In this document: positions 32,050 through 45,300 of the stretch, piece after piece
Position numbering within the stretch: the stretch's first letter is position 1
How the letters are laid out: each line of letters opens with the position of its first letter
Assembly: GCF_000002865.3 (NCBI RefSeq)
Contig: NW_001865051.1
Span: forward strand, 701,318-765,317
Reading direction: 5' to 3'
Source of the DNA: Monosiga brevicollis MX1
Taxonomy: Eukaryota > Opisthokonta > Choanoflagellata > Craspedida > Salpingoecidae
DNA length: 64,000 nt
Notes under the pieces: model-generated
What the model was told of the DNA's origin: nothing
The model's input: only the letters and a program-made list of their open reading frames with translations
Database searches by the model: none
Translations under genes and position numbers: made by a program

Positions 32050-32577
32050 TCATTCGTTGGCACAGTTCATCTCGGATGTCTCATCATCTGCCTGTGCTCC
32101 ATCACATTTTGTTTTCTTGGGAGAAGGGGTGGGGTCCTCCGGATCTGCTCTGGTCTTAGCGTCGCTAGCCTGATCGGCCTTGGTGGCGTCTCCTTTGTTC
32201 TCGGCAGCCGCCTCCTCCTTGGTCTCGGCAGCCGCGTCCTCCTTGGTCTCGGGAGCCGCCTCCTCCTTGGTCTCGGGAGCCAACTCCTCCTTGGTCTCGG
32301 GAGCCACCTCCTCCTCGGTCTCAGGAGCCGTGTCCTCCTCGGTCTCGGGAGCCGCCTCCTCCTTGGTCTCGGGGGCCGCCTCCTCCTTGGTCTCGGGAGC
32401 CAACTCCTCCTTGGTCTCGGGAGCCGCCTTCGCCTCAGTCTCGGTGTTGGTTGTGGCTGGAACTTCCGCCTGGATCACGGGATCCGGCTTTTCAATGACC
32501 TTGTCGTTCTGAACCATATTGGCGGTGTTGTTGTTGTTCTCGGCTGCTGCCATTTCGGTGTCATTCATAGGTGGCAT
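32050..32577 (-). CDS. Acidic octapeptide-repeat protein
   Basis: Single open frame of 175 codons from ATG 32577 to the stop at 32050. Residues 52-131 are ten tandem copies of an 8-residue unit with consensus APETKEEA; copies vary at positions 1, 2, 5, 7 and 8. The head is Asn/Glu-rich (EMAAAENNNNTANMVQND), and the tail has PSPKKTKCDGAQADDET, which could be a nuclear localisation signal. The protein is strongly acidic, predicted disordered, with no signal peptide or membrane segment. I do not recognise a family; acidic KEE-type repeats occur in histone chaperones, axonemal and stress proteins. A frame kept open across all ten copies suggests it is translated. Confidence 0.6.
   Translation of the reverse strand: MPPMNDTEMAAAENNNNTANMVQNDKVIEKPDPVIQAEVPATTNTETEAKAAPETKEELAPETKEEAAPETKEEAAPETEEDTAPETEEEVAPETKEELAPETKEEAAPETKEDAAAETKEEAAAENKGDATKADQASDAKTRADPEDPTPSPKKTKCDGAQADDETSEMNCANE
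32185..32424 (-). repeat. 24-bp coding minisatellite, ten copies
   Basis: Ten contiguous 24-nt units encode the octapeptide repeats. They are not identical: several synonymous and replacement differences separate copies, and adjacent blocks share variants (the EEL and EEA copies recur as pairs), which suggests block duplication. Confidence 0.9.
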
Positions 32578-33416
32578 GTTCACGGGTAGTCAAGCAGACA
32601 AGGAATGGATGTGTGCAAAGCGTAGTCCTCAAAAGGTGATGGCGGGGTTGTTTTGAATTCAGTGGCCAAGCTGGTAAATGCCACTCCCGGCCTCTTCGCT
32701 CCGTGATGTTTCGAGGGTGGGTGGCATTCACACAACACGCTTTCCTTTGGCCGTTGTCTGCAGCTTGGGCACCAACAACAAGCTTAAACATGTTCAGCCT
32801 CATTCATCATCATTGATTGATCCTTGCGTTGGTGACTGTTGATGCGTTGATTTGGATTTTGTCGACAATTCATCAAAAAATTTTGGCGGGAAAAAACGGT
32901 TTGTAACAGTCATCTTCGCAAATCTGATTGACATGTGAGGCTCACGTTGGTCGTCATCGACAAGAAATCAATTCACACATTCAAAAAAACACAACTGGGG
33001 TGGGGGCTCACCTCACGAAAACACGTGACAAAAGCCAGCAAAGGAACCCCCACAGTCAGGTCAAAGCGCGCTTCGCTTAGAAATCAAGAAATGTACAACA
33101 AACAAATTTGGCAAAGGAGAAAACAAAAACACTTGCGCGCGCGTTTAGACGCTGTGCCTAAGGAGATCGAACGGGCCAGAGAGATACCACTCGTGGTTGG
33201 TCTGTACATCGCGTGCTGGGGCAGGCTACTAAAAAGCCTTGAAAACTTTTTGAGACAACAAGCCCAATGCTTGTCACCCTTGTTGTCCTTGTGGATCCAT
33301 CAATCATCCACCAACCCACTGACTTAAAACAAAGAAAAAGAACACCGACAATGAACAACGTTTGCTTAAGCAAGCTGGTGCAGACCAGAAGTTCTTTTGA
33401 AGGCTAACACGGGAAA
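32578..33416. other. Intergenic region between the acidic-repeat gene and the Ca2+ pump
   Basis: Both flanking genes are on the minus strand, so this holds the pump's 3' UTR and the acidic-repeat promoter. It is AT-rich at 32820-32920 and contains a 130-codon plus-strand open frame (32935-33327) without any recognisable domain, which I leave uncalled. Confidence 0.4.
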
Positions 33417-36400
33417 TTACACAACACTCTCACGCCTACACACACAAGCCATCCACGGGGGCGCGTAAGCATGACATGAGCATTCATCTTATGACGGGAT
33501 GATGGATGGCTGATAGCGGCGACTTACTTTTCCAAGGGAGCAGGCAGATCAAGTGTTTGTTGGGGCAGCTGCTCTGGGTCCTCGCGTCCACGGGCCTGGC
33601 TATTCGAGGACAGCGTCAGGGTGGTGGTGGCAGCCTGATCAGCATTGATGGCTGGGTTGGCCACCTCATTCACTACGCCATTCTTGAAGGCACGGACGAC
33701 GCGGAGTTGGAACCGGACGCGCGCCACGGCCGTGCGCCACATGGCGCTAGCTGGCGTGGCCACTGAATGACCCTTTTGTTCAAGGCTGGCCTGTTCTGAG
33801 GCGCGACGCGGCGCGCGGGCCTCGGGTCCGCCAATGGCATGGGTGGCCAGCTGGGCAGTGCGGCGACGCAAGCGCGCAATTTGGCCAGCCGTGCGGAACG
33901 CACCAATCACACGGATATGACGGCGAACGCGACGGCCGACTCGCGACCAGAGAACGCTGGTGCTCGTGGCCGGCTCAGCCCCGCGCTGTGAGGACACTGT
34001 GTTGGAGCGCTCAACACGCGCTGTTTTGGGGGTCGTGGGCGCGTCCAGGCCAGCAGGGGGCAGCTCGGGCGTCGTGCCTCGCTGCTCCTCTTCAATCTCC
34101 GCTGCACGGTCTGGGCTCAGATCAGCATATGCCCCCGGTTCCAGCCACTCGGGAATCCATTGCCAGGGGAAGATGTAGTGAAGAATGACGTTCCACACGA
34201 GTGAGCCCGCGCCAAAACCAATGCAGGCACCCCAGATGTCGGCATCAAGAGGCTCGGTCTCAATGGCACGACCACCAAATTCCACAATTAGCACCTGCAC
34301 CACGGCGGTACCCACAATGACACCCACAAAAATGGGGTTGGAGAAGAAACCGCGGAAGGGACGATAGAAGTTGCCCACGATACGTGGCATGCCTGGCATG
34401 TTCAGATTGTCGTCCACCACGCGGGCGTTGATCTCATTGAAGATCTGCATCCACACAAAGGTGTTGAAAACCATCGAATAGTGCTGTGTCAGAATCTGGT
34501 CGTCCTTTTGCTGCTCCGTGAGGTCATAGCGACGGCCACTCTGAATGTTGAACATCTTATCACCATAGAAGATGAGTAGGAGGAGTACAACGAGCTGGTA
34601 GAAGGAGTGACCAAAAATCTGGCGCAGCATGATGCGCGACAAAAGAGGCTTGTTGCGGCCGTAAGGGGCGCGATCGAGGAGCTCGGGAGTGGGAGGCTCC
34701 GTGGCCAGGGCAAGGGCAGCAAACACATCCATAATCAGGTTGACCCAGAGCAGCTGCACAGCACGGAGGGGTGATTCGCGGATGGCACAGGCTCCGATGA
34801 AAGCCACGAGAATGGCCACAACGTTCACCGTGAGCTGGAAGACCAGAAACTTGGAGATACCATCGTAGACATTGCGGCCCCAAGAGATGGCCTTGACGAT
34901 CGAGCTGAAGTTGTCATCAGTGATAACAATGTCCGAGGCCTGGCGAGCCACGTCCGTGCCGGCAATACCCATGGAGAAGCCAACATCAGCCTCCGAGAGC
35001 GCGGGACCATCGTTCGTACCGTCACCGGTCACGGCCACCACCTCACCGGCCTTGATGAGACCCTTGACCAGGTTGAACTTGTCCGAGGGAGAGCAGCGGC
35101 CCATGACGCGGAGCTTGGGCGCAATGCGGTTAATCTCGTCAAAGTCGAGTGAGCCGTCATCCCGGACGACGCGACGACGAAAGTCAGGGCCCTCCATGAC
35201 GACGCCGTCGCCGTCTTCCTCCTCAGTGATGATGCCACAGTTGATGGCAATGGCACGAGCTGTGATCATGTTATCACCCGTGACCATGCGGACGGTAACG
35301 CCGGCGCGGCGGCAAGTGGTAACGGCATCGGGCACTTCGGGGCGAACGGGGTCTTGGATACCCACAAAAGCGGAAATGACCAGGTCAGAGAGCAAAGCTT
35401 CTTCCTGGTCCCAGTCTTGCGCGTCGTCAAAATCCTTGTAAGCGATGCAAATCACACGCAGGGCTTGTTCGGCAAAGCGAATAATGACGTTTTGCTCGAG
35501 GCCCTCGCGGTCAGCCGCAGTCAGCGGGGTCGTGCTCTCGTTTCCAGCGTCGTAGGCGGTGGCATACTTGAGGATAATCTCAGAGGCACCCTTGACAAAC
35601 ATGCGGTACTTGCCATTGGGCAAGCGAACAATGGTCTCCATGCGCTTGGTGGCCGAGTCAAAGGGGTAAACCTTGACGTAGCTATCAACGGGGTTGTCCT
35701 TGCGAATTTCAGTGTACTTGCGAGCCGCAATGTCATCGCCAAACTTGAGGCAAGCGCACTCGGTCTTGTTGTTCTCTTGCACAGGAAGCCCAGACTCCTC
35801 GTCAATGTAGTAGTTGGAGGCGCGGTCACTGTTGAGGGCGATACCGGCCTGCAAACGAGCCAGCAGATCCTGGGGCAGGCCCTTGACCTCAGTGGAGCCG
35901 TCATAAACGCGACCGGCCATCCACGACTTGACCACAGTCATGCGGTTGGTGGTAAGAGTACCCGTCTTATCAGAGCAGATGGTGGTGGCATTGCCCATGG
36001 TCTCGCACGAGGCGAGAACGCGGACGAGGTTGTTGTCGTTCATCATCTTCTTGACAGAGTAGGCCAGGGAGATGGTAACGGCCAAAGGCAGACCTTCAGG
36101 GATACCGACCACCAGGACAACAATGGCTACGGTGACAAACTCGACGTATTCGGACCAGACGCTGGCTTCGTAGTCGTGGTTGTCAACGCCAAAGTGCTGA
36201 ATGGAGAAGGAGAGAATGAGGACGATGAGCGTGAGGATGGACATGAAAGTAACGCCGTAGCCAATCTGCAGCGCCATGCGTTCCAGCTTGGCTTGCAGAA
36301 TGGATTCCTAGGGTGGTTCGAGACATGTGAGCCGGAACCAGTGAGAGGGTTATCGGTCCACAAAAACGACGACTGCGACATGTAGATCACCAGCGGCCGT

Positions 36401-38143
36401 CACAATGTTGAGCAGACCACAAAATCTGCCCGTGTTTCCAAAAGTACTATGCGGTATTGTTTGACCACACCACCTGACACAAACACGGGGTCTTTCTTGT
36501 TTGGGGAGTCACCCATTGAAGAAGGAGGATACGGTAGAAAAGGACGAAGAGAACAGAACAAAATCCAAAGTGTGGACATGATACAACAACTTACGCGCTT
36601 CTTGGATTTTTTCTCTTCGGCTCGCTCCAGCTTTTCTTGCTCATCCTCGGGAAGGTTATCAAAGTTTTCTTGTTGGCGTTGGTCCATGCGCTCCACCAGG
36701 TGCTCCACCTCCGACACGCCCTCCTTGTCGAGGGCAAGAAGGCGTTCCGACTCTTCCTCGCCGACACCCGTAATGAGTTTCTGGATGATGCCTTCTTCCG
36801 AGAAAAGACCGACGCAGGTGATGATCATTGCTCCCGAGCCCTGCTTGACGCTCGTGCCTGACAGGAGCCAAGGGTTCTCCTCGAGCGTCTTCTCAATATC
36901 GTGTGATTCGCCGGTGAGGGCCGACTCGTCACATTTGATATTGTTGGCGCGGAAGAGAACGCCATCGGCGGGTAGGATGAGACCAGCGTTGACGAGGACA
37001 ATGTCGCCGACGACGAGATCTTGGTAGTTGACACGTTGCTGTTGACCGTTGCGGATGACGTCTGCCATCTGGGTTGACGACTGCTTTTCGAGGAGTTCGC
37101 GAAACTGCTTTTCCTTTTGAAGATCGTTGATGGCAGAAACCATGACGACGACGGCGATGGAGACAAGGATGGCACAGCCCTCGATCCAGCCCGTGTCGGC
37201 ATGGCCCTCGACTTCAATGCCGAGGATGAGGGAGATGATGGCGGCGATACCAAGGACCAGCAGAATGGGGTCTTGGGCGGCTTCCCACATGAGTTCAAGA
37301 AGTGTCTTGGCGTCCACATCAGGGGTCTTGTTGGCGCCAAAGACATGTGCGCGGTTGGCAAGGTCTTCTTCCGTGCCAGAAATACCACGATCAAGGTCCG
37401 ACTTGACCTTATCAGCCAAGCCCTTGGCACCACCAAAAGTTTGTTCGTAGCGTTCGATACCATTAGTGCCGCGCTCGCTGATAAGCTCGACGAGCTGGGT
37501 CAGGCGGCAACCAAAGCCACCACTGGCCGCGATGGCGCCAAGGGGCTTCATTTCAATAGCTTCGCCTTTGTTGGCATCAAGATCTGTGCTGGTCAGCGCC
37601 GGGGCGGGGGCTGACTCTGGCTTTGTGCTTTGGCGAAGAATGGTCAGGGTGGGCGTGGGGGTCTTGAGGGCCTTATCAATGGCCTGGAAGGCTTGATCAT
37701 GAGTTTTCTATCAATCAACAACACCAAAAGAATGAAAAAAAAGGGAAAAAAGAGAATAAGAAGAAAGAAAAAGAAAAAAGAAAAAAGAAAAAAAAAAAAA
37801 AAGGAAAACAAAACAGCATGTTCGGTCAGAACGCGGCCAGTACAACGAGGTGGAAAATGATGTGGAGCAGAACCAGGAGGGTGATCTTGGTCGCCCTTGC
37901 CTGCCCTTGGTGTATCGGTCAACAGGAGAGCGATAAAAAACGTACGCCTTCCAACGTGTCGGAACCCACGGCCAGGATCTTGTCCCCGACTTGAAGACCA
38001 GCCTTTTCGGCGGCACCGCCAGGCAAAACCTCGGTCAAGTAGACGCCGGCATCTTCCTTGCCACTCAAAGGTGAATCAACACCACCTGCAATCTTGCAGC
38101 CCAGACCATACTCTGGGCTGAGTGTCACCTCAAAGCGTGACAT
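33417..38143 (-). CDS. P2B-type plasma-membrane Ca2+ ATPase with N-terminal PDZ domain and C-terminal PDZ ligand
   Basis: Ca2+-extruding P-type ATPase. Exons are 38143-37946, 37707-36595, 36307-33528 and a proposed last exon 33435-33417. Exon 1 and the start of exon 2 form a complete PDZ domain: YGLGCKIAGG binding loop, LQVGDKILAVGSDTLEG, and helix B THDQAFQAIDKAL with the class I histidine. Then follow the ATPase landmarks: LELMWEAAQDPILLVLGIAA, CDESALTGES, GIPEGLPLAVTISLAYS, the phosphorylation site CSDKTGTLTTN, MVTGDNMITARAIA, VAVTGDGTNDGPAL, and the C-terminal helices (WVNLIMDVFAALALATEPP). The tail has two calmodulin-binding-like segments, SVLWSRVGRRVRRHIRVIGA and AMWRTAVARVRFQLRVVRAF. 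The stop after PLEK overlaps a GTAAGT donor; splicing to the GTGTAG acceptor 92 nt on gives RESVV at the end. Length is about 1369 residues spliced and 1364 unspliced. The family call is certain; the last exon is inference from splice signals and protein logic. Confidence 0.92.
37630..38143 (-). other. PDZ domain encoded at the pump's N-terminus
   Basis: The domain is split by the 37708-37945 intron between strand and helix B (EG|KTHDQ). GLGC replaces the common GLGF carboxylate-binding loop. His opens helix B, the position that selects Ser or Thr at ligand position -2. The frame continues directly into the ATPase in exon 2. Confidence 0.9.
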
Positions 38144-39887
<1,744 letters not shown>

Positions 39888-41883
39888 ATGTATCGCGCCA
39901 CGCGTCGACTCGCCACCGCGGCCACCGCGACCACGAATCCCTCCGAGCTCCTTTCCGACCTGACGGTCCATGCCAAATATGCCCGCTATGTGCCAGAGCT
40001 TCGGCGTCGTGAAACGTGGCATGAGCTGGTGGCTCGCAACGAGGCGCTGCACACGGAGCGCTTTCCGGAGCTGCGTGACGACATCCGCCGCGCCTACCAA
40101 CACGTCTATGCCAAGCGCGTCCTGCCCTCGATGCGGTCCCTCCAGTTTGCCGGTCCGGCCCTGGAAACAAACAACACCCGCATGTTCAATTGCAGCTTTG
40201 CGCCCCTCAACCACGTGGACACCTTTGGTGAACTAATGTTCCTCCTTCTCAGCGGCTGCGGTGCCGGCTATAGCGTGCAAGCACATCACATCGCTCAGCT
40301 TCCTCGTCTCTTGCGCCCCCGCACTGATGCCCATCGCACCTTTGTCATCCCTGACTCAATTGAAGGCTGGGCCGAGGGCCTACGTACTCTTCTGGAAACC
40401 TATCTGCCCGCGTCGGGTCAGCGCCAACCCTCGGTCCGCCTCGACTACTCCCAAATCCGCCCCAAAGGTAGTCCCCTCCGCACTGCTGGTGGTCGGGCCC
40501 CTGGCCCCGATGTCCTGCGCTCAGCCTTTGTCGCTATCGAGCAACGTTTGACCTCGCTCTCGGACGGCCAGCCCCTCGCCTCTATCGACGCCCACGACAT
40601 CATGTGCCACGCCGCCACCGCCGTGGCCTCAGGGGGCATTCGCCGCTCCGCTCTCATTAGTCTCTTCTCCCCGGGCGATGAGGCCATGCTGAGCGCCAAG
40701 AGTGGGTCCTGGTGGGAATCCAATAGCCAGCGCGCCATGGCCAACAACTCCGTCGTCCTGGAACGCGAACGCCTGAGCCACGGCGAGTTTGCCGATCTCT
40801 GGACGCAAATTCGCGCTTCAGGAAGCGGCGAGCCTGGCGTATACTTTACCCATGACCGTGACTGGGGTACCAACCCCTGCTGCGAGATTGCACTCGAGCC
40901 CTTTCAGTTTTGCAACTTGACGGAGATCAACGCCAGCATCGTTCGCACTCAGGCCGACCTGGACGAGTTGGCGCACACGGCTGCCTTTATTGGTACCTTA
41001 CAAGCCTCCTCCACCGATTTTCACTTTTTGCGCCCGCAGTGGCGTGCCGTGACCGAAGCCGCCGCCCTGGTTGGCGTCAGCATGACTGGTATGTTCTTGC
41101 CTCCCCCCGCGACCGCTCCCCTGGGCCCCGATCTTGTCACGTGTGCCTCACCCAAAGGGATGTTTGACAGGCATTGCCAGTGGGACAGTTTTGAACAAAG
41201 ATCTGGCCCGCGCCGCCCGTACGGCTGTCGCTGCCAATCAACGTGCAGCTGCACAGATTGGCATCCAGTCGGCAGCTCGCGTCACCACGGTCAAACCGGC
41301 AGGAACCACGAGCCTTGTCCTGGGCACCTCAAGCGGCGTGCACGCGTGGCATAGTCCCTATTATCTGCGTCGCGTTCGAGTCAACAAATCCGAGGCCATA
41401 TACTACTATCTCCAGGCCACCAACCCCGGCCTGCTGGAAGACGATCAAATGGCGCCCGAAACTACCGCCGTCATTGCCTTTCCTCAAAAGGCGCCCAGCA
41501 ATGCCCTTCTTCGCTCCGAGTCAGCCCTCGACCTCTTGCACCGTGTGCAAAAGCTTCACCAACACTGGATCCTTCCCGGTCACGCCTGGGGCGCCAACAC
41601 CAATAACGTCTCCACCACCGTCTCAGTCAAGCCGCACGAGTGGGAGGCCGTGGGCAACTGGATGTGGGAGAATCGCGGCGCCTACAATGGCCTGTGTGTC
41701 CTCCCGTTTGACGACCATACTTATGTGCAAGCGCCATTTGAAGAGTGCGATCAAGCGACCTTTGAGCGGCTCTTGCCGCAAGTCAAGAGCCTCGACTTCT
41801 CGCAGGTCGTTGAGGACGAGGACGATACAGCCTTTCACATGGCTCCGGCCTGCGCCGGCCAGCAATGCGAAATTGCACCCTAA
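39888..41883 (+). CDS. Class II (adenosylcobalamin-dependent) ribonucleotide reductase, monomeric
   Basis: Reduces ribonucleotides to deoxyribonucleotides using coenzyme B12 to make the thiyl radical, so it needs neither oxygen nor a small subunit. Two exons, 39888-41088 and 41171-41883, total 637 codons. Landmarks of the monomeric RTPR/Euglena-type subclass: RRETWHELV, VLPSMRSLQFAGPALETNN, the first active-site Cys in MFNCSFAP, SGCGAGYSV, and the radical and redox site NPCCEIALEPFQFCNLTE. Then come TTVKPAGTTSLVLGTSSGVHA and the C-terminal redox pair CAGQQC just before the stop. The N-terminus MYRATRRLATAATATT is rich in Arg, Ala and Thr and lacks acids, compatible with a mitochondrial presequence. 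A single 82-bp GT-AG intron and animal-type surroundings show a resident nuclear gene; bacterial origin is inference. Confidence 0.93.
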
Positions 41884-42374: not shown

Positions 42375-45300
42375 ATGAGCAGAATGCAGTGGGCGCCATC
42401 GCCCCTACCAGCCCCATCGAGTTTTGCGGCACCTCGATCATCACCACCAGCCATCTTCGGCGGTGATGGCGGCCAGGCTACCACTGGTACCGTGGCTCTG
42501 GCTTGGATGGTGGGCATCAGGTACGTGCGACTGGTGGGCCGTGCCTTGAAAAATTGCAAACACCGGCTTTCTGCATGCTCGGTCTTAATCTTGCACATCT
42601 TGGAATGGTTGGGTCTCACAACGACGCGGGACATTAGTGGTCTGGCCAAGACAAACAAGCGCCTGCTGCTCAAGGTCAAGGTCGCTGATATCTGCCTGGC
42701 CGTGGTGGCAGATGAGGGTGCGCTGCTGCGTCGCGATGCCGTGCTTATGTATGGTCTGATCCTCATACATCTGTACAAGGCCGATCGGCTACTGTGTAAG
42801 GCGTGCTAGTCATGCAAAGACGCTGCTTGATGCCCGACATGTTGTTGGTGACCTCCCTGCCTCTGGTACAAGCGTGTCGCTCAGCTGGCTCACGCCCTAC
42901 TGCTTTGCTGCGAATCCATTGGCTGGTCTGGCTTTCTAGCCGACCTGTTGGCCTTGCAAGCTCAATGCGCCTTACGCTTCAACGTCGCAGCGCCATCCTT
43001 TCAAGCCCGGTAGGCTGGTCACGGTTAGTAGTGGTTGAGCCTCACCTCATTCTGACCTGGTGCTGGCGCCTGCTCTTTGTACTTTTAGTCCCGAAAGCAT
43101 CACCCTGGCGGTGCGCGATCATTTGGCTCAGGACCCCTTGAGCTTGACTCAGGAATCTCTCAAACTCAGAGCACCGGTTCGATCTGCTGCAGCCGCCCAT
43201 CTTCATCGTGTCCTCTGGTGCCTGGTTAAAAGTGCCCCCAAATTTTCTTATTATTTTTTGTTGCATCGTTTGCACATCGCCCTCACACACTCTAGCCCGA
43301 GCTGGCCTATCACACCGTAGGCCTAGTCAATGACAATCTCGTGTTTTTTGTAAGTTTGTGATCCGCCTGCCTCAAGTACGCCTGCGGGGAAACTTGGCGT
43401 TGAGTTGTTGATTGAAGGAGATGCGACTTGCTGTAGGAAAATCTGAGTCATTGGCCGACTATTCCACTCTCGGACGAGTTGTACACCGTATGTCACGTGT
43501 GCGCCGAGCCCACATTCTGTTGCTGCGCCTAAAGTGACACAACTATTTGTGCGTCGGTCTAGGCAACCCACCCACATGATCTACAGCTATCTACAGAGAG
43601 CTCGCCGCTTGCCCGACCTCCTTCTCCGGATGGCAGTCACGACTCCATGTTCACCACGAGTCGCCGCGAGGCCACCATCCTGGCACAAGGTCAACTTACA
43701 AATGAGGGAGGGGAGGACGCAGTGTGCTAGCAAGGTGGCGAGGGGGCGGCGAGATTAACATATCTGCCTGGTTACACACGGCTCATCGCAGCTTGACTTC
43801 CCTTGATCGCCTGGTTGTATTTTTCTTAGCCATGCCTGACACTGCCGATGAGCTCGTACAAGGGCAATTGAGTCAGGCCTTGGAGCGGACCACCGTGGTT
43901 CGAGCCATTCTGCCGCAACCCAATGATCAACTCTACGACGACGCTGACGATGACGACGCAGACTTTGGATTCAGCCCTCTCGACAACTCGTCTGAGCCAG
44001 GCTTGCCAGAAGATTGTGATATGAGGCTTCCCTCGCGTGCGTTGAGTTTTTGCTATTGTCAGCAAGGCAGTCTCAGCATTTTGCTCATGTTGATGCTGGA
44101 ATTCCTTGCATTGGCAGCAGTCATGCAATCTCCCCTGCCCGGCATTGGAGAGCCAGTCATGACCGACAAAATCAAGGTGTTCTTGCTTCAACTGCACCTA
44201 CCTCCCCTAAACAGCCAACCTCTTTTCATGAGCCCCCCCCCCCCGCCCTCCATCCCCGTCCCCACACCACAGTATATGGAAGAGTGGTTGCAAAACATCT
44301 TCAAAGCATTCATCTAACTTCTTGGTCGCTAACTCGTCGGAATGATATCTTTTTTCGCCTCTCCACGTGACAGATTTCACCACCAATGGATACAACACCC
44401 AGCAAGCACACGCCATCAGCACAGACCAGGAATGACCTGCAATCGCCTGTCACACCACTACCTCAACTTCCCCTGATTGACGACTTGCCTCCCTTGCCCC
44501 CAATTACCAAAGTCGCTGAACGACGGCACCCTCGCCGCGATCTACGGCTGCAGATACCCAAGGGCGAGCTGCGTGATCGTGTCGCTGATGCAAGTCATCC
44601 GCCATCGGTGCCTCAAGCACCATCGTTTCGTTCAATGGTAAGGCATGTCTTGAAGTGACAAGGGCAAGTAAATATTGATCGCCGCATCATGTGAATGATG
44701 TGGACTTGCTTGATTCTAATCACAGCACCCAAGCCATGCGGCCAAATGGACTCTGCGAGCAGGCTGTGCAGTGCCACATACAGGTGCGTGTGACTACGGC
44801 TGCCACAAATGCCAATGACCTATAGTTAGCGCATAACACCAAATTTTGCCGTGCCATAGTGCTGGGGGAGATGCCTCAATTACGGGCCCTTCTCAAGAAA
44901 AGCAAGGCTTCACTGGTGCAATTCATGCAGAAGCGTAAACCAAGGCCTCCAATTCTCGACTTTTTGCCTCGTTTCCTGCCAGTCATGAACTCAGACGACG
45001 GCAGCAGTGACGTGGGCGGCATCCCAAGTGATGATGATGCAGACAGTGAGGTGCCATATATTCCTACTCCTGAGCAGGGGCGCTACCAGGCCTCAAGGTT
45101 GGTTGCACGCCTTCGCCTTTTTTTTATCCTCGACAGAGCATGTATCTCACTGCCTCGCTCATGGTGTTGCGTGCCGGCGTCTGCCCGCTTACCAACAGCC
45201 ACGGGGGCCCATCTTCAAGTGGAGTGATGTCTTCACCTCCCGCGCTCTTGCTGCAGTCACCCGAAACACAACTCCCGCCTTGGTCGAGTCCTTCATATAC

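Follow-up and report, generated by a model that had tools for sequence, protein, structure and literature searches.

A gene in a 64,000-nucleotide stretch of the genome of the choanoflagellate Monosiga brevicollis MX1 (contig NW_001865051.1, positions 701,318 to 765,317; the whole stretch is called the window below) is predicted to encode a plasma-membrane-type (P2B) Ca2+ pump whose cytosolic N terminus bears a fused PDZ domain of class I type and whose last residues, ESVV, would form a class I PDZ ligand according to the best gene model. What can be read from the sequence is the fusion itself, a PDZ fold as judged by homology, the intact pump motifs, two calmodulin-binding-like helices and, within that gene model, the ligand. 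The gene lies on the minus strand (38143–33417) and consists of four exons, the 4110-nucleotide coding sequence of which gives a protein of 1369 amino acids ending in LPAPLEKRESVV. The order of elements in the protein is PDZ domain, linker, PMCA-type Ca2+ ATPase core, a tail roughly 220 residues long, and the KRESVV end. Translation begins at GCCGCCATG, directly upstream of which there is an in-frame stop. All introns are of the GT-AG type (donors GTACGT, GTAAGT and GTAAGT; all three acceptors TAG), and the exons and splice sites reconstructed here confirm the coordinates that a first-pass annotation of this DNA had assigned to the gene. The features of the gene are as follows:

37946..38143 (−), exon 1: Met1 to Gly66, the N-terminal portion of the PDZ domain, including its carboxylate-binding GLGC loop
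36595..37707 (−), exon 2: residues 67–437, the end of the PDZ domain, the linker, Cation_ATPase_N and the first part of E1-E2_ATPase (PF00690, PF00122, TIGR01517)
37630..37707 (−), start of exon 2: residues 67–92, helix B (THDQAF..) and the last PDZ strand, in the pump frame
37549..37551 (−), Met119: the sole other Met among the first 200 residues, a putative start of a PDZ-less pump
33528..36307 (−), exon 3: residue 438 onward, the remaining PMCA-type core and most of the C-terminal tail (TIGR01517, 731.2 bits)
35957..35971 (−), DKTGT phosphorylation motif, residue 550
33887..33955 (−), first calmodulin-binding-like helix, residues 1222–1244, VLWSRVGRRVRRHIRVIGAFRTA (match to the PMCA2 helix)
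33677..33745 (−), second calmodulin-binding-like helix, residues 1292–1314, AMWRTAVARVRFQLRVVRAFKNG (match to the PMCA2 helix)
33436..33527 (−), last intron, 92 bases
33417..33435 (−), exon 4, 19 bases: the last base of a Lys codon, RESVV and the stop; class I PDZ ligand

Residues 10–81 match positions 8–74 of the 81-position Pfam PDZ profile PF00595 with 59.5 bits, which is above the curated cut-off of 23.2 across most of the fold. The domain displays the hallmarks of class I, namely a GLGC loop, in which Cys replaces the usual Phe, and a His (His69) at the first position of helix B (B+1). Upon alignment to the second PDZ domain of PSD-95, GLGC takes the place of GLGF and Lys17 that of the Ser after it, and His69 matches the His of helix B. 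The first-pass annotation had described a complete PDZ domain, with the GLGC loop and a helix B starting THDQAF, in frame with a full P2B ATPase; both motifs are present as described, and the PF00595 match, the matches to the PMCA-type model TIGR01517 and the sharing of exon 2 by the two domains bear the description out.

The open frame that starts with KTHDQAFQAIDKALK (KTHDQAF, PDZ helix B) reaches the N-terminal domain of the pump without a stop. Because the second half of the PDZ domain shares this uninterrupted exon with the pump, splicing is not the only evidence for the fusion. A separate upstream PDZ gene was considered and rejected because helix B is located within the pump exon. The join between exons 1 and 2 was evaluated by enumerating 584 GT/GC-AG joins and scoring them with an own-genome PDZ profile, which was built from 11 other PDZ domains of the same genome that we selected. 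The proposed join ranked first of the 584 with 62.8 bits, followed by a runner-up with 55.2 bits. Exon 1 carries most of this score, as it reaches 52.2 of the 62.8 bits by itself; nevertheless, none of 2000 shuffles of the exon 2 residues equalled the proposed join (the best shuffle gave 59.9 bits), and the exon 2 part is predicted to supply the elements that a PDZ domain needs in the correct position. That the gene is an artefact of modelling or assembly is very improbable: the gene model was derived from DNA alone and its exon 4 comprises merely 19 bases, but such an artefact would have to account for a single uninterrupted exon containing both helix B and the pump, and for an exon 1–2 junction that scores best of all those enumerated. 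The bases that precede the start codon (38144–38160, minus strand), CTCCTAG immediately before GCCGCCATG, resemble a splice acceptor. As this acceptor-like sequence precedes the ATG at 38143, an upstream 5′ exon, and hence a longer N terminus of the pump protein, is possible.

The best single-domain PDB scores for the pump PDZ were those of SAP97 (48.7 bits), TIP-1 (46.1 bits) and Scribble (44.4 bits), and within its own genome a multi-PDZ protein on C48 and mbDLG scored 45.1 and 39.9 bits, respectively. Since SAP97, TIP-1 and Scribble score alike, and the C48 protein scores above DLG, the pump PDZ is not clearly a copy of a DLG domain. The C48 protein (L035, C48:74500-83500) contains GLGFSIAGG-type repeats and includes the PDZ domain that, within this genome, is most closely related to that of the pump (47% identity). 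When the window was scanned in six frames, the only clear PDZ match was that of the pump, with a weak one at 44589–44675 (E 0.13).

The remainder of the protein has the features of a PMCA-type pump. Exon 3 alone matches TIGR01517 with 731.2 bits (cut-off 507.05) and exon 2 with 229.6 bits, the top PDB relatives of the pump are PMCA2 and PMCA1, and the TGES, PEGLP, DKTGT, GDGTND and NLIMD motifs are all intact. Ion pumps of the P2B type have ten membrane helices, and both of their termini are cytosolic.

The ESVV end fits the S/T-x-hydrophobic class I pattern and requires the removal of the 92-base last intron, whose GTAAGT donor agrees with the consensus and whose acceptor is TAG. Among the 23 AG sites listed up to 400 bases from the donor, this acceptor alone produces a class I end. 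The strongest support comes from the closest paralogue, a P2B pump on C46, which ends in QETIV directly in a long open frame, with no intron needed. Given the composition of both pumps, an E[ST]xV end would arise by chance with a probability of 0.0007 and any [ST]x[VIL] end with one of 0.03. The spliced C terminus proposed in the first-pass annotation is supported as the probable end of the protein in the best gene model.

It is improbable that the PDZ domain and the ligand rarely occur in one protein. A start at Met119 would give an ordinary pump and retention of the last intron a ligand-less tail, which would amount to a splice switch like that between the a and b tail forms of animal PMCAs. 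Met119 is positioned 12 residues before an FGCRL stretch, which we take to resemble the usual PMCA N terminus, and a retained last intron meets a stop at once, so that the protein would end in ..PAPLEK and have no ligand. Against this stand the good preservation of the PDZ domain (59.5 bits) and the freedom of exon 1 from stops and frameshifts, as well as its GC content by codon position (65/47/59%), which is only roughly like that of exon 2 (65/37/66%) and exon 3 (62/43/70%).

In Table 1 of PMC1876816, human PMCAs end in LETSV, LETSL and VETSL and the fly PMCA in TETAV, whereas the worm PMCA ends in ETNNL. Because ETNNL misfits class I, the ligand is not universal among PMCAs. Both predicted Monosiga ends resemble the human and fly ends and not that of the worm. 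The tails are too short for proof, but a common origin of the Monosiga and human/fly pump ends is likely, and the comparison suggests that E-[S/T]-x-V PMCA tails are older than animals.

Upstream of this ligand, the tail contains the two calmodulin-binding-like helices. When either helix was compared with that of PMCA2 (PDB 9gsd), none of 3000 shuffles of the tail segment scored as well, and none of 5000 shuffles matched as well as the two repeats match each other. Compared with the helix of a third P2B pump, on C42, as-good shuffles numbered 28 of 5000 for the first repeat and 1 of 5000 for the second. The C42 pump has one calmodulin-like helix (0 of 3000 shuffles), and the open-frame tail of the C46 pump displays none (2161 of 3000 shuffles as good). 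Two results were weaker: the second helix obtained only 0.2 bits in the whole-chain alignment to PMCA2, and a search of the PDB with the tail alone gave no match up to E 5, both of which are expected because the motifs are short. By analogy with the PMCA family, the window pump probably binds calmodulin, and the presence of two such helices would make Ca2+/calmodulin the likely switch of a latch formed by the PDZ domain and the tail, if such a latch exists.

To place this pump in its genomic context, the genome (39.5 Mb, 57 contigs) was searched for related pumps and PDZ domains. The eight PF00689 matches fall into seven loci, three of which are P2B pumps by the family models: that of the window, C46 (680.6 bits) and C42 (507.3 bits from a partial frame, barely reaching the cut-off of 507.05). 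Pump typing covered these seven loci and the number of P2B pumps is thus at least three. The C46 pump (L018) is closest to the window pump, with 71% identity over 1092 aligned positions; its frame (L018 3056–7290, plus strand) is rich in His over stretches close to either end and has a Gln-rich stretch near the C terminus. The C42 pump (L021) ends in ..AFRRHRR at the open-frame stop, and a further exon is possible. A six-frame scan with the own-genome profile found no PDZ domain in any of the other six pump loci (each scanned over 9.9 kb), that of the C46 paralogue included, while the same scan detected PDZ domains at the DLG and C48 loci, both of which are among the sources of the profile. 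Either the window pump gained its PDZ domain or the C46 sister lost one.

The genome contains at least 146 PDZ matches (150 of 197 candidates were scored); a total of 178 PDZ domains in M. brevicollis is cited in PMC8512817. Among the matches listed, and with coordinates compared by eye, the locus in the window is the only one of 13 P-type ATPase loci with a PDZ domain within 10 kb. These loci represent our own grouping of 18 PF00122 matches, and the only match of the C47 locus is below the cut-off. Similarly, none of the 19 Ion_trans and none of the 9 Na_Ca_ex matches has a PDZ domain within 10 kb among the matches listed. On the basis of the PDZ matches listed, we rejected the PDZ domain as a general feature of ion transporters in this genome. 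The DLG protein of the genome (L036) comprises three PDZ domains, the start of an SH3 domain and a GuK domain, as read by eye, and its third PDZ domain is identical in 91 of 91 residues to PDB 6x1n (mbDLG-3). A passage of PMC8512817 identifies mbDLG as an M. brevicollis protein; the words ‘ATPase’ and ‘calcium’ are absent from the main text of that article.

The anatomy reported in the first-pass annotation, a class I-type PDZ domain (GLGC, His69) and a class I ligand (ESVV) on one Ca2+ pump, is what we find: given splicing of the last intron, both are present on a single chain of the gene model. Binding of the tail by the PDZ domain of the same protein is plausible, the sequence would allow it, and a pairing of Lys17 with the ligand residue Glu(−3) is conceivable. 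Binding of ESVV by the PDZ domain, its occurrence in cis and any influence on pumping or clustering are inferences. Our preferred reading, held tentatively, is that the PDZ domain serves to latch pump tails of the E-[S/T]-x-V type, mainly the tail of its own chain. In the resting pump, the tip of the tail would occupy the PDZ domain and the calmodulin helices would be held near the cytosolic domains of the pump. The latch would be opened by the binding of Ca2+/calmodulin beside the tip or, alternatively, by (i) phosphorylation of Ser(−2) or (ii) competition from another binding partner, for instance mbDLG or the sister pump with its QETIV end.

To gauge whether the tail could reach the PDZ domain, we used a rough Gaussian-chain estimate for 15 cases, with a linker of 60–270 residues, a distance between anchors of 0–80 Å and an assumed chain stiffness. 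The effective concentration of the tail tip at the PDZ domain was 0.03–7 mM across these cases, and at a dissociation constant (Kd) of 50 µM the closed fraction would be at least 0.76 in 14 of the 15 cases and 0.41 in one. With a linked ligand at such an estimated concentration, cis binding would be a strong competitor, if the PDZ domain accepts ESVV.

Several observations weigh against a latch. Position B+5 of helix B is occupied by a bulky residue, F73, whereas V, I, L or A is found there in the nine other PDZ domains that possess a B+1 His; the comparison comprises the PDZ domains of the profile alignment, of which L004 has no His and L029 was left out as its frame seemingly enters an intron. 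Positions B+1 and B+5 are among the seven PDZ cleft positions considered in a passage of PMC8512817. Furthermore, there is no basic residue directly before GLGC, and together with F73 this weighs mildly against a strong class I site. The chain estimate takes no account of calmodulin, of crowding or of a tail docked onto the pump. The ligand depends on the splicing of a short last intron, and the worm end in Table 1 of PMC1876816 is not of class I. Only one of the three P2B pumps found carries a PDZ domain, and its conservation is therefore not shown. Finally, mbDLG and the other PDZ domains of the genome could compete for the tail.

A different reading is, in our view, a real if somewhat doubtful possibility: the PDZ domain tethers the pump to another protein with a class I tail, such as a receptor, channel or adhesion protein, ESVV serves as the attachment site for mbDLG or some other scaffold, in the manner of animal pumps, and self-binding is of no importance. 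With at least 146 PDZ matches in the genome, partners abound, and because the organism has a DLG, a trans scaffold is available. In passages of PMC9307954, membrane-associated guanylate kinases (MAGUKs), PSD-95 and SAP97/hDlg among them, bind the b-tails of mammalian PMCAs. As the organism has its own DLG, of the kind that binds PMCA tails in mammals, the earlier idea that the pump needs no separate scaffold is not forced. The sister pump or other proteins may be what the PDZ domain binds in place of its own tail, and ESVV may be a ligand of mbDLG. The argument against separate partners is the covalent attachment of the ligand, with its estimated local concentration in the micromolar-to-millimolar range given above.

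That the PDZ domain binds the tail of a neighbouring copy of the pump or of the C46 sister, linking pumps into membrane clusters or chains, appears unlikely. It is favoured by the sister itself: having no PDZ match yet a QETIV end, which is encoded free of introns, this 71% identical pump is an equally good candidate for a trans ligand. Moreover, according to a passage of PMC9307954, the ligand of the PMCA b-form can mediate dimerisation. The chain estimate, however, would favour the cis mode at low pump density.

Extending the preferred reading, in which the PDZ domain latches mainly onto the tail of its own chain, to a complete internal device, where the PDZ domain grips its own C terminus in cis and the two calmodulin helices release it upon a rise in Ca2+, makes for a more doubtful proposal. 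If it were true, autoinhibition, membrane clustering and the choice of scaffold would be switched together in one molecule. The pump would then represent a fused, single-chain counterpart of the trans contact between pump and DLG in animals, existing beside a PDZ-less sister that offers the same plug.

The surroundings of the pump gene were also inspected. On the opposite strand, an adjoining open frame (39879–41351, plus strand) matches B12-dependent (class II) ribonucleotide reductase, with 184.5 bits to TIGR02505, which for this partial frame is below the whole-protein cut-off of 340.05, and with E 4.1e-21 to PDB 1l1l. Between the pump and this divergent reductase-like frame, upstream of the pump start, there is a long GA repeat followed by a GT run (38454–38617). 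Directly downstream of the pump, an open frame of APETKEE-type repeats (32050–32589, minus strand) has no Pfam match at E 0.001.

No announcement of a PDZ-PMCA fusion was found in the open-licence literature, as covered in part through titles and the openings of abstracts. A survey of Monosiga relatives of post-synaptic proteins, PMCA among them (PMC2824662), mentions no such fusion in the passages available and states there that the presence of PDZ ligands across taxa is generally undecidable. The ESVV and QETIV ends of two of the three P2B pumps found provide a concrete case of PDZ ligands for PMCA. The pairing of a PDZ domain with a pump domain may well be visible in public protein databases.

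To our knowledge, animal PMCA pumps have no PDZ domain of their own, and they have one calmodulin helix; the window pump differs from them in its fused PDZ domain and its doubled calmodulin-type helix. Plant P2B pumps of the ACA8 type have two calmodulin sites, which are N-terminal; the window pump likewise has two calmodulin-type sites, but both are C-terminal and the PDZ domain is at the opposite end. With its C46 paralogue it has in common a class I C terminus, and it alone of the two has a PDZ match and calmodulin-like helices. The likeness to the b-forms of animal PMCAs (ATP2B1-4) lies in the P2B core, the calmodulin-type tail helix and a C-terminal E-T-x-V/L ligand, as listed for human and fly in PMC1876816. 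Closure of a PDZ domain by the C terminus of the same protein is described for Dishevelled, with a Kd of 7 µM for the C-terminal peptide (passages of PMC4577825), and for tamalin and NHERF1 (passages of PMC2891790). Those three proteins are soluble adaptors with own-tail closure, whereas the window protein is an ion pump for which closure is predicted. According to passages of PMC9307954, mammals use separate PDZ scaffolds to position their PMCA pumps, and a choanoflagellate pump with a built-in PDZ domain would offer a single-chain system in which to ask whether contacts between the PDZ domain and the tail alter the activity of the pump or its location only.

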